Assembly: GCF_900182605.1 (NCBI RefSeq) | Contig: NZ_FXTB01000002.1 | Location: forward strand, 186,001 to 250,000 | Direction of reading: 5' to 3' | DNA from: Saccharicrinis carchari | GTDB lineage: Bacteria; Bacteroidota; Bacteroidia; Bacteroidales; Marinilabiliaceae | Length of the DNA: 64,000 bases | Part shown: piece after piece, positions 62,676 to 64,000 of the stretch | Numbering within the stretch: the stretch's first letter is position 1 | Layout: each line of letters starts with the position of its first letter | The notes under the pieces: generated by a model | Told to the model about the DNA's origin: nothing | Seen by the model: the letters and a program-made list of their open reading frames with translations, nothing else | The model's database searches: none | Translations under genes and position numbers: made by a program

Positions 62676-62824
62676 GGCAAATGGGAGTGTAAATTGAACT
62701 CTGTCTGATGTTTATTTTACGTTTTCAAATAAACTTATATTTTTTCGTTGAACCAATTTCTAAAAGCCCGACCTTCCCGATGTTAATCGGGACGCTCTGC
62801 GCTTGTAGCCTCTGGTAACAGAAT

Positions 62825-63076
62825 CTATTTTGCATCGAGTATTAGTTTTTCGATATACTTTCTGCTTTTCATCCTTTTGATATAGTTTTCCCTTTTCAAC
62901 GCATCTGATTTATTGGGGAATACCTCTGAATATACCACCGTCCATGGGCGATATGGTTTTGTAGACGGTGTCGCTCCTGCGTTGTGCTTGTCAATTCTTT
63001 TTTTTATGTCGGCACAGGAGCCTATGTAGTATCTGTCCTTGGATTGACTGTGGATTATGTAAACGAAGTGGGGCAT
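62825..63076 (-). CDS. GIY-YIG nuclease family protein (first copy)
   Basis: The start is ATG 63076, giving 83 residues. The domain has HFVYIIHSQ followed by YYIGSCADIKKRIDKHNAG, the GIY-YIG core. A RPWTVVYSEVFPNKSDALKRENYIKRMKS tail carries the usual catalytic Arg/Glu region. Stand-alone proteins of this size are common in Bacteroidota, often near tRNA or rRNA genes, with unknown role. The second copy lies 411 bases away and differs by only a few residues. A tRNA terminator sits just before it. Confidence 0.85.
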   Translation of the reverse strand: MPHFVYIIHSQSKDRYYIGSCADIKKRIDKHNAGATPSTKPYRPWTVVYSEVFPNKSDALKRENYIKRMKSRKYIEKLILDAK

Positions 63077-63095
63077 GCTGGGTGTTTTTGATAAC

Positions 63096-63130
63096 AAAAA
63101 AAGGGAACAGAAATATATATCTGTTCCCTT
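63096..63130 (-). terminator. Duplicated tRNA terminator
   Basis: A perfect 10-bp stem (aagggaacag 63101-63110 with ctgttccctt 63121-63130) is followed by T on the minus strand (plus-strand A-run 63096-63102). It is the copy of the tRNA-Met terminator at 63,507-63,539 but now follows a degenerate tRNA. Confidence 0.8.
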
Positions 63131-63132
63131 CG

Positions 63133-63230
63133 TAGCGAGAGGGCGACTTGGCCTGCCCCGATTTTTATCGGGGAACGCCCGACCTTCCCGATGTTAATCG
63201 GGACGCTCTGCGCTTGTAGCCTCCGGGAAC
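63133..63230 (-). pseudogene. Degenerate tRNA-Met copy with two palindrome insertions
   Basis: The tRNA 3' end tagcgagagggcgactt is kept exactly at 63133-63149. A 23-base palindrome with tail (63151-63173) interrupts the T-loop. The sequence then continues as in the tRNA (63174-63185). The anticodon stem-loop is replaced by TCCCGATGTTAATCGGGA (63186-63203), and the D-arm side is diverged. It cannot be a working tRNA. Confidence 0.8.
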
Positions 63231-63235
63231 AGAAT

Positions 63236-63487
63236 CTATTTTGCATCGAGTATTAGTTTTTCGATATACTTTCTGCTTTTCATCCTTTTGATATAGATTT
63301 CCCTTTTAAACGCATCTGATTTATTGGGGAATACCTCTGAATATACCACCGTCCATGGGCGGTGGGGTTTTGTGGATGGTGTTGCTCCTGCGTTGTGCCT
63401 GTCAATTCTTTTTTTTATGTCGGCACAGGAGCCTATGTAGTATCTGTCCTTGGATTGACTGTGGATTATGTAAACGAAGTGGGGCAT
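63236..63487 (-). CDS. GIY-YIG nuclease family protein (second copy)
   Basis: It is nearly identical to the first copy, with a handful of substitutions (for example Lys to Arg in KKRIDRHNAG, and DAFKREI for DALKREN). The start is ATG 63487. It follows the tRNA-Met and its terminator directly, so it must be expressed from read-through or its own promoter. The high identity to the first copy means the duplication is recent. Confidence 0.85.
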   Translation of the reverse strand: MPHFVYIIHSQSKDRYYIGSCADIKKRIDRHNAGATPSTKPHRPWTVVYSEVFPNKSDAFKREIYIKRMKSRKYIEKLILDAK

Positions 63488-63506
63488 GCTGGGTGTTTTT
63501 GATAAC

Positions 63507-63539
63507 AAAAAAAGGGAACAGACATATATCTGTTCCCTT
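63507..63539 (-). terminator. Rho-independent terminator of tRNA-Met
   Basis: A perfect 10-bp stem (aagggaacag 63512-63521 with ctgttccctt 63530-63539) runs into a T-tract on the minus strand (63507-63513). It begins two bases after the tRNA 3' end. Confidence 0.88.
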
Positions 63540-63541
63540 CG

Positions 63542-63615
63542 TAGCGAGAGGGCGACTTGAACGCCCGACCTCGTGATTATGAATCACGCGCTCTAACCTG
63601 CTGAGCTACCTCGCC
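63542..63615 (-). tRNA. tRNA-Met (CAT)
   Basis: This is a 74-base cloverleaf on the minus strand, without an encoded CCA. The acceptor GGCGAGG pairs with TCTCGCT (two G-U), the D arm contains GCTC...GAGC, the anticodon arm is CGTGA-TTCATAA-TCACG with anticodon CAT, and the T arm is GGGCG-TTCAAGT-CGCCC. The anticodon stem lacks the three G-C pairs of initiator tRNA, so it is an elongator. A tRNA-Ile with modified CAT anticodon is not excluded. A terminator follows directly, and an 84-base tandem array starts at its 5' side. Confidence 0.92.
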
Positions 63616-64000
63616 ATTATTTCAATTATCGAGTTGAAGTTTCCCAGCCGACCTTCCCGATGTTTATCGGGACGCTCTAACCTGCTGAGCTACCTCGCCA
63701 TTATTTCAATTATCGAGTTGAAGTTTCCCAGCCGACCTTCCCGATGTTTATCGGGACGCTCTAACCTGCTGAGCTACCTCGCCATTATTTCAATTATCGA
63801 GTTGAAGTTTCCCAGCCGACCTTCCCGATGTTTATCGGGACGCTCTAACCTGCTGAGCTACCTCGCCATTATTTCAATTATCGAGTTGAAGTTTCCCAGC
63901 CGACCTTCCCGATGTTTATCGGGACGCTCTAACCTGCTGAGCTACCTCGCCATTATTTCAATTATCGAGTTGAAGTTTCCCAACCGACCTTCCCGATGTT
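63588..64000 (-). repeat. 84-base tandem array carrying the tRNA-Met 5' part with a replaced anticodon arm
   Basis: Complete units run 63647-63730, 63731-63814, 63815-63898 and 63899-63982, all identical by eye, plus 18 bases of a fifth unit cut by the window end. The fifth unit differs by one base at 63983. The tRNA's own 5' part and flank (63588-63646) are the same sequence. Each unit, read on the minus strand, has the tRNA acceptor strand and D arm (about 27 bases), then TCCCGATAAACATCGGGA in place of the anticodon arm, the variable-loop bases, and the tRNA 5' flank, without a T arm. Confidence 0.92.

Follow-up and report, generated by a model that had tools for sequence, protein, structure and literature searches.

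Why should an intact tRNA-Met gene stand at the end of a row of copies of its own 5' half, in each of which the anticodon arm has given way to a palindrome? This arrangement lies near the end of the window analysed here, by which we mean the whole 64,000-nt stretch of Saccharicrinis carchari DNA at positions 186,001-250,000 of the forward strand of NZ_FXTB01000002.1 (assembly GCF_900182605.1). Together with the recurrence of the pattern beside a family of small nuclease genes that adjoin tRNA genes in many related bacteria, the row of broken copies suggests a tRNA-gene parasite of a type not yet described. Among the openly licensed PMC papers listed by literature searches, none described the swap pattern in its title or the beginning of its abstract.

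Results

Eight hairpin-bearing tRNA halves precede the intact tRNA-Met gene

The intact gene (anticodon CAT) was called by ARAGORN at 63541..63615 on the minus strand and by Rfam at 63542-63615 (RF00005, 66 bits), the tRNA family being the only one to reach the Rfam threshold in the window. It is the sole full-length match to itself in its own genome, and ARAGORN reads it as continuous, with no group I intron in the anticodon. On its 3' side, at 63507..63540 of the minus strand, stands a terminator-like inverted repeat, AAGGGAACAGA...TCTGTTCCCTT followed by a T run, which was read by eye from the sequence.

On the 5' side, Tandem Repeats Finder reported a period of 84, 4.9 copies and 99% matches at 63589-64000 of the window, in agreement with the sequence-only reading, which had described an 84-base unit repeated at least 4.9 times just upstream of tRNA-Met. 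That reading had proposed extending the sequence past position 64,000; in a longer stretch of the same contig (L007), the array indeed ran on to coordinate 64284, giving a total of 8.3 copies and eight hairpin units 5' of the intact gene. Read on the minus strand, each unit consists of a 27-nt tRNA 5' half, an 18-nt hairpin, AGGTCGG and about 32 nt of leader, and it lacks the T arm and the 3' acceptor strand. The tRNA sequence ends at position 27 and restarts at 45, which bears out the earlier description of a 17-base anticodon stem-loop exchanged for an 18-base palindrome, here TCCCGAT-N4-ATCGGGA.

Unit 8, nearest the tRNA (63616..63699, minus strand), was delimited by repeat analysis as a 5' half, hairpin, AGGTCGG and short leader. 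Its hairpin, TCCCGAT-GTTT-ATCGGGA, occupies the place of the anticodon arm at 63655..63672 (no strand assigned) and is the first of a series continued at 63739, 63823, 63907 and 63991. Unit alignment showed that units 7 (63700..63783), 6 (63784..63867) and 5 (63868..63951), all on the minus strand, are identical to unit 8. Unit 4 (63952..64000, minus strand) is split by the window end and continues to 64035 in the contig sequence past it; units 3-1 and the promoter motif described below lie outside the window, in L007. The perfect identity noted earlier therefore holds for the tRNA-proximal units 5-8 and fails for units 4, 3, 2 and 1, which differ from them at 2, 3, 2 and 8 bases. Unit 1, the most distal, has its first three tRNA bases changed and a mismatch in the hairpin stem.

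Neither ARAGORN nor Rfam called any window unit as a tRNA, the intact gene alone being recognised, and the window units do not provide a tRNA fold with a T arm and a closed acceptor stem. The predicted RNA fold of unit 8 has an energy of -26.4 kcal/mol (z -2.9), matched by 1 of 200 shuffles. The exact number of identical units is taken from the assembly, which comprises 31 contigs and holds the array inside a 561-kb contig. An assembly artefact is unlikely to be the sole cause of the array, because the swap is seen in other genomes too and an 84-bp period recurs in the tRNA-Met array of one Salinivirgaceae MAG (L093). Outside the window, L007 contains a 269-bp tandem unit in 4.8 copies with 94% matches (L007:9041-10321, about 70940-72220 in window coordinates) and a 374-bp tandem array up to its end (L007:12846-14101).

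The array lies between a promoter motif and the tRNA

We scanned 1 kb on the array strand for TAnnTTTG, which we take to be the Bacteroidota -7 promoter element. The motif occurred once, as TACATTTG at about 64331-64338, 46 nt before the distal-most unit, and was absent from within the 84-bp unit. DNA around this promoter aligned with the region directly before tRNA-Met in array-less relatives, best in G006. The array sits between promoter and tRNA and would therefore be transcribed as the tRNA leader, as, judging by the position of the motif, it probably is.

Among loci with orphan tRNA 5' halves (accepted with up to 6 mismatches, some perhaps chance matches), the motif, sought 10-90 nt upstream and with hairpin-free tRNA calls alone included, preceded the first orphan in 19 of 40 cases, inner orphans in 2 of 21 and the intact tRNA behind orphans in 4 of 50, compared with 54 of 84 tRNAs without orphans. 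Fisher tests on the motif counts as they stood before hairpin-bearing tRNA calls were removed gave p = 4e-6 and 2e-10. The arrays at these loci would thus likewise lie downstream of a promoter and be transcribed as tRNA leaders. The suggestion that each unit may carry a promoter found no backing, given a single motif past the distal end of the array and the 2 of 21 inner orphans. The unit as a tRNA or promoter-bearing gene in its own right was rejected for the window, where there is neither a tRNA call nor a TAnnTTTG in it. The 21 of 40 first orphans lacking a recognisable TAnnTTTG count against the nuclease-based interpretation given in the Discussion.

Two GIY-YIG genes and further tRNA-Met remnants lie on the 3' side

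Downstream of tRNA-Met and on the same strand are two GIY-YIG nuclease ORFs, 94% identical to each other. The nearer, at 63236..63508 on the minus strand (90 aa from TTG, or 83 aa from an ATG at 63487), matched PF01541 with E=3.8e-17 and, weakly, PHROG 5123, 'homing endonuclease with GIY-YIG motif', with E=2.5e-4. The second (62825..63097, minus strand, 90 aa) matched PF01541 with E=9.9e-19. Hairpin-bearing tRNA-Met remnants occur between and after these ORFs. One of them, with two hairpins, at 63131..63209 on the minus strand, was resolved by sequence reading, hairpin scan and flank alignment into a 3' acceptor strand, a T arm invaded by CCCCGATAAAAATCGGGG, a variable loop and TCCCGATTAACATCGGGA in place of the anticodon arm; a near copy of the terminator-like repeat at 63507..63540 adjoins this remnant. 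The last remnant (62767..62798, minus strand; sequence reading and hairpin scan) comprises the end of the D stem, the hairpin TCCCGATTAACATCGGGA and the variable loop. The loop TAAC of the 3'-side hairpins recurs in the 5' array (units 3 and 4), and the array and the 3' remnants therefore share hairpin variants. The two nuclease genes and the remnants downstream, which the earlier reading had not included, give the array its context. The 84-bp units of the window hold no nuclease gene, a fact that counts against the nuclease-based interpretation.

The same genome has a second such locus at the start of contig C10 (C10:1-530, L251), where a GIY-YIG gene is followed by a tRNA-Val-like 3' half, its kind read by eye from the sequence, and then by a truncated nuclease copy. 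The hairpin of this half, TCCCGTGG...CCACGGGA, has a different inner stem, and a tandem repeat that the assembly left unresolved may account for the end of the contig here.

The exchange of arm for hairpin recurs at fixed positions in tRNA genes

GAGCG joined to the array hairpin pattern was present in 16 of 395 genomes of the phylum, including that of S. carchari, and one control stem of other sequence in 0 of 395; chance is therefore an unlikely cause of the swap. A search of related genomes for the unit beside tRNA-Met, also proposed in the sequence-only reading, yielded tRNA-Met copies of the array kind in three of the 60 relatives searched (G029, G060 and, with an imperfect stem, G053). 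The hairpin-marked copies of G060 (L025) had no nuclease within the stretch examined, and this too counts against the nuclease-based interpretation.

The pattern scan of species genomes returned at least 118 stretches, and the following figures refer to the 80 among them that were listed: 61 were labelled Bacteroidota, 60 had tRNA-like flanks, and in 47 an intact tRNA was matched within 1500 nt. The 20 without tRNA-like flanks comprised 10 Bacteroidota and 10 of the 19 with other labels. Among the tRNAs affected are Met, Ala, Val, Lys, Arg, Thr, Pro, Gly, Leu and Ile. Copies with a swapped-in hairpin were also observed next to the matching tRNA in the MAGs at L063, L108, L118, L121 and L125, labelled Armatimonadetes, Acidobacteria, Patescibacteria, Ignavibacteria and Kiritimatiellae, for which mis-binning is possible.

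Flank alignment to the neighbouring tRNA placed the breakpoints of anticodon-arm swaps (17-nt arm) mostly at 25-28 on the left and 43-47 on the right. Val copies mostly broke at 28/46 and Ala copies at 26-27/45; at two Ala loci the breakpoints were 35/42, the anticodon loop alone having been replaced. The tRNA pieces outside the window include both 5' halves and 3' halves, with the hairpin also in the T arm or the D arm: Asp copies mostly broke at 51/60, within the T arm and T loop, and Gly copies mostly at 25/34 and 48/64. Arm totals in the nuclease sample described below (39 anticodon, 31 T and 8 D) are rough, because automatic assignment takes in terminators and intact arms.

At the 58 nuclease loci chosen by protein similarity and described below, 43 orphan halves of the neighbouring tRNA were detected. 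An inverted repeat without mismatch, 6 bp or longer, stood at the arm position in 37 of these 43 and occurred in 86 of 1242 control 40-mers, the 3'-half orphan segments being, at 46 nt, slightly over the control length. The six of 43 without a hairpin weigh against the nuclease-based interpretation, as does a hairpin-free orphan arm at L226. Hairpins of the TCCCG...CGGGA type were found in 34 of the 58 nuclease loci, with 65 in the 74 kb lying at most 450 nt from a nuclease gene and 4 in the 103 kb elsewhere in the same loci.

Two accounts of the hairpin were rejected. It is not fixed as TCCCGAT, for the inner stems vary in the sample chosen by protein, and the apparent constancy was one of ascertainment by the search pattern; nor is it unique to the window locus, to which 9 of 16 TCCCGAT hairpins in its own genome belong when a wider loop range is allowed, the other 7 lying in another repeat. 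These seven TCCCGAT...ATCGGGA palindromes (L245-L250) form part of a longer dispersed repeat with no tRNA called near. Genome G085 contains 46 hairpins of the general pattern, those listed being spread over many contigs, and its dispersed palindrome TCCCGATAGCTATCGGGA (L256-L259) is a possible source of the tRNA hairpins. That such hairpins are not confined to tRNA copies in these two genomes also counts against the nuclease-based interpretation.

Across the loci examined, ARAGORN made ten tRNA calls that include the hairpin (at L069, L075, L111, L120, L129, L177, L201, L211 and L222), the anticodon mostly being read from the hairpin loop. Some copies therefore probably stand as tRNAs in public annotation.

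The nuclease genes adjoin tRNA genes and form tRNA-specific lineages

Searched by protein alone, the nuclease matched in 43 of 119 genomes of the class and 143 of 395 of the phylum. We examined 58 loci from other genomes, chosen by nuclease similarity alone; as the best-scoring matches, they are biased towards the window nuclease. A tRNA on the same strand was called at most 50 nt from the nuclease in 37 of the 58, at most 200 nt away in 50 and at most 400 nt away in 52, and none of the 58 had a tRNA call on the opposite strand. These counts were unchanged after hairpin-bearing tRNA calls had been removed. The eight loci without a same-strand tRNA within 200 nt count against the nuclease-based interpretation. 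The proteins have a GIY-YIG domain, and the active-site Tyr, Gly, Arg and Glu are each conserved in at least 99% of the aligned rows. The nuclease stop codon often falls inside a tRNA piece, as the TAG of TAGAGC in 16 of 94 cases and in others within TAGCTCAG or the hairpin.

The nuclease lineages are specific to particular tRNAs. A tree of 95 rows and 91 columns, with many unresolved forks and with host kinship ignored, requires 30 changes of tRNA identity over the 78 rows with an assigned tRNA, whereas 300 shuffles required 55.7 on average and never fewer than 51; before one tRNA label was corrected, the figures were 31 changes against 56.5 in shuffles. Groups within it are dominated by Gly-gcc, Asp-gtc, Lys-ttt, Val-tac, Ala-ggc and Ser-gct. 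The window nuclease clusters with Asp-linked ones though it lies beside tRNA-Met, which again counts against the nuclease-based interpretation. The nuclease stood solely 5' of the intact tRNA at nine loci, from which L222 was left out, its downstream tRNA call being a hairpin copy. Since all nine fall in one 19-row clade (SH-aLRT 91), a free choice of side by single crossover is less likely.

At L227 (G547 C9:906052-910389), ten nuclease genes were seen in tandem with a 457-bp period, together with a second tandem of four genes with a 379-bp period. A defence system and plasmid carriage were rejected, PADLOC and the plasmid collection having yielded no match. The swap pattern occurred in three viral contigs (viral_contigs); a scan for viral carriage reaching close relatives alone found no nuclease relative. 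By tblastn, ten phage records matched the nuclease, all Rhizobium phage.

Discussion

We favour, with a probability of roughly 55%, the reading that the array is a short, nuclease-less part of a tRNA-gene-targeting GIY-YIG element working like phage SegB. Members of this family have a small nuclease gene set flush against a single tRNA gene, and the nuclease would cut inside its own kind of tRNA gene, so that the neighbouring tRNA gene would be its target. Recombinational repair between neighbouring copies would then insert and multiply the unit, as with phage SegB, and insertion and amplification would leave one intact tRNA with at least one partial copy on either side. In most partial copies a hairpin, commonly of the TCCCG...CGGGA type, stands where an arm should be, and by displacing the stretch that the nuclease needs, the hairpin would leave these copies dead as tRNAs and cut-proof. 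New units would arise next to the intact tRNA, the array leader would be removed by tRNA processing, and the 84-bp units of the window would be derivatives that lack the nuclease and were amplified 5' of the tRNA. Proximal units are identical and distal ones decayed, a gradient in keeping with addition at the tRNA; ordinary decay at the edge of an array predicts much the same. Support for this reading comes from the adjacency of nuclease and tRNA, the hairpins of the orphan halves, the hairpin density, the breakpoints, the conserved catalytic residues, the tree, the promoter position and the precedent of SegB. The anatomy likewise fits a chromosomal element, with a nuclease devoted to one kind of tRNA, duplications that start or end inside the tRNA, and one intact copy. 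The weak point of the reading is the intact gene: were the nuclease restricted to tRNA sequence, it would cut that copy as well. The earlier idea of a selfish satellite came near to this reading and wanted the GIY-YIG genes and the downstream remnants.

A plainer history would have the tRNA 5' half duplicated locally in tandem, by slippage or unequal crossing-over, together with a dispersed palindrome, the nuclease being a bystander and palindromes being tolerated only in dead pieces. Tandem arrays typically show a decayed edge around a homogeneous core, several genomes contain dispersed TCCCGAT hairpins, the S. carchari genome has other tandem arrays, and some arrays have no nuclease in the stretch examined. 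We nonetheless judge this history unlikely: across many tRNA kinds and organisms the breakpoints fall repeatedly at the same arm boundaries, hairpin density near the nuclease is about 22 times that in the rest of the loci, nuclease and tRNA share one strand in every locus with a tRNA call, and chance pick-up would not yield 37 hairpins among 43 orphan halves. An exchange at the DNA level would account for the boundaries in another way, if extruded cruciform arms were swapped for a mobile TCCCG...CGGGA hairpin and the GIY-YIG protein were a structure-specific nuclease. Most anticodon-arm removals do fall at stem boundaries (27/45) with a hairpin as the replacement, and the hairpins often agree in their outer pairs and differ in inner stem and loop; yet in the Gly and Asp lineages only part of an arm is replaced, and at two Ala loci the loop alone, and we hold such an exchange to be quite improbable.

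It is also very doubtful that the hairpin-swapped copies are functional RNAs in the leader or trailer, whether they were to serve in processing or regulation or to lure tRNA-binding enzymes as decoys. The place of the array between promoter motif and tRNA makes transcription probable, the unit folds better than its shuffles (z -2.9), the arm is swapped for another stem and not deleted, and some full-length swapped copies elsewhere pass ARAGORN, accounting for the ten calls. Against a function as RNA, the window units are not recognised as tRNA, the distal units decay, and the range of 5' halves, 3' halves and hairpins in the D, anticodon or T arm leaves no evident common retained part. The decoy idea of the sequence-only reading gains little from these data, which offer nothing positive beyond probable transcription of units that have neither T arm nor 3' acceptor strand.

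Returning to the GIY-YIG element, we tentatively propose, as a broader possibility with less than even odds, a class of chromosomal tRNA parasites, mainly in Bacteroidota and occasionally beyond, in which a tRNA-type-specific GIY-YIG nuclease would bring about the exchange of arm for hairpin in nearly all copies but one; the host would keep one working tRNA while cut-proof copies multiplied in its leader and trailer. If this is true, the exact exchange of an arm for a hairpin would be a new kind of DNA rearrangement, and how a tRNA arm is exchanged so exactly would become a sharp mechanistic question. The nuclease family (143 of 395 sampled phylum genomes) would consist of tRNA-specific selfish elements, which would prey on tRNA genes, in the present case on a gene with no second copy, and persist by sparing one. 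It would also explain a class of tRNA-gene fragments, some of them taken for tRNAs by annotation software, and would supply a chromosomal counterpart to SegB-driven amplification.

Several known systems resemble parts of this arrangement. In cyanobacteria, very small mobile palindromes have inserted into the stem-loops of structured RNA genes. The likeness lies in tiny palindromes within RNA-gene stem-loops; set against that general description, the palindromes here replace an arm, in dead copies beside a nuclease. REP and other small palindromic repeats, among them GTAG-tagged REPs (PMC3733652), are likewise short and GC-rich, and palindromes are also dispersed in some of the present genomes; the hairpins described here, however, adjoin a GIY-YIG gene and lie at set arm positions of a tRNA, with tRNA sequence on both sides. 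In the window units, neither the GTAG nor the CGTC tag named in the title of PMC3733652 is found at the palindrome foot, the flanks being tRNA (AGAGCG before the palindrome, AGGTC after it). Integrated mobile elements leave partial tRNA genes next to an intact one (PMC9897764); unlike those fragments, the ones described here are multi-copy, hairpin-swapped and accompanied by a GIY-YIG gene.

Intronless homing is a familiar property of free-standing GIY-YIG enzymes. Among these, the closest comparison is with SegB of T-even phages, which is reported to cut within tRNA genes and to amplify the tRNA and segB segment in tandem (PMC13096335). The Asp lineage removes GGTTCGAG, as read from the sequence. 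The SegB motif is given as RAWTSGAAC (PMC13096335), whose reverse complement is GTTCSAWTY, and the stretch removed in the Asp lineage therefore resembles a SegB site; the terms T-loop and T arm were not found in a search of PMC13096335. By their presumed manner of working, we would place the present nucleases with the free-standing GIY-YIG homing endonucleases, a placement that makes no claim of membership in the SegB family. What they share with SegB is a small free-standing GIY-YIG gene beside tRNA genes (PMC13096335). They differ from it in their bacterial genomes, in their many tRNA-specific lineages and in extra tRNA copies that are partial and hairpin-marked, not full-length.
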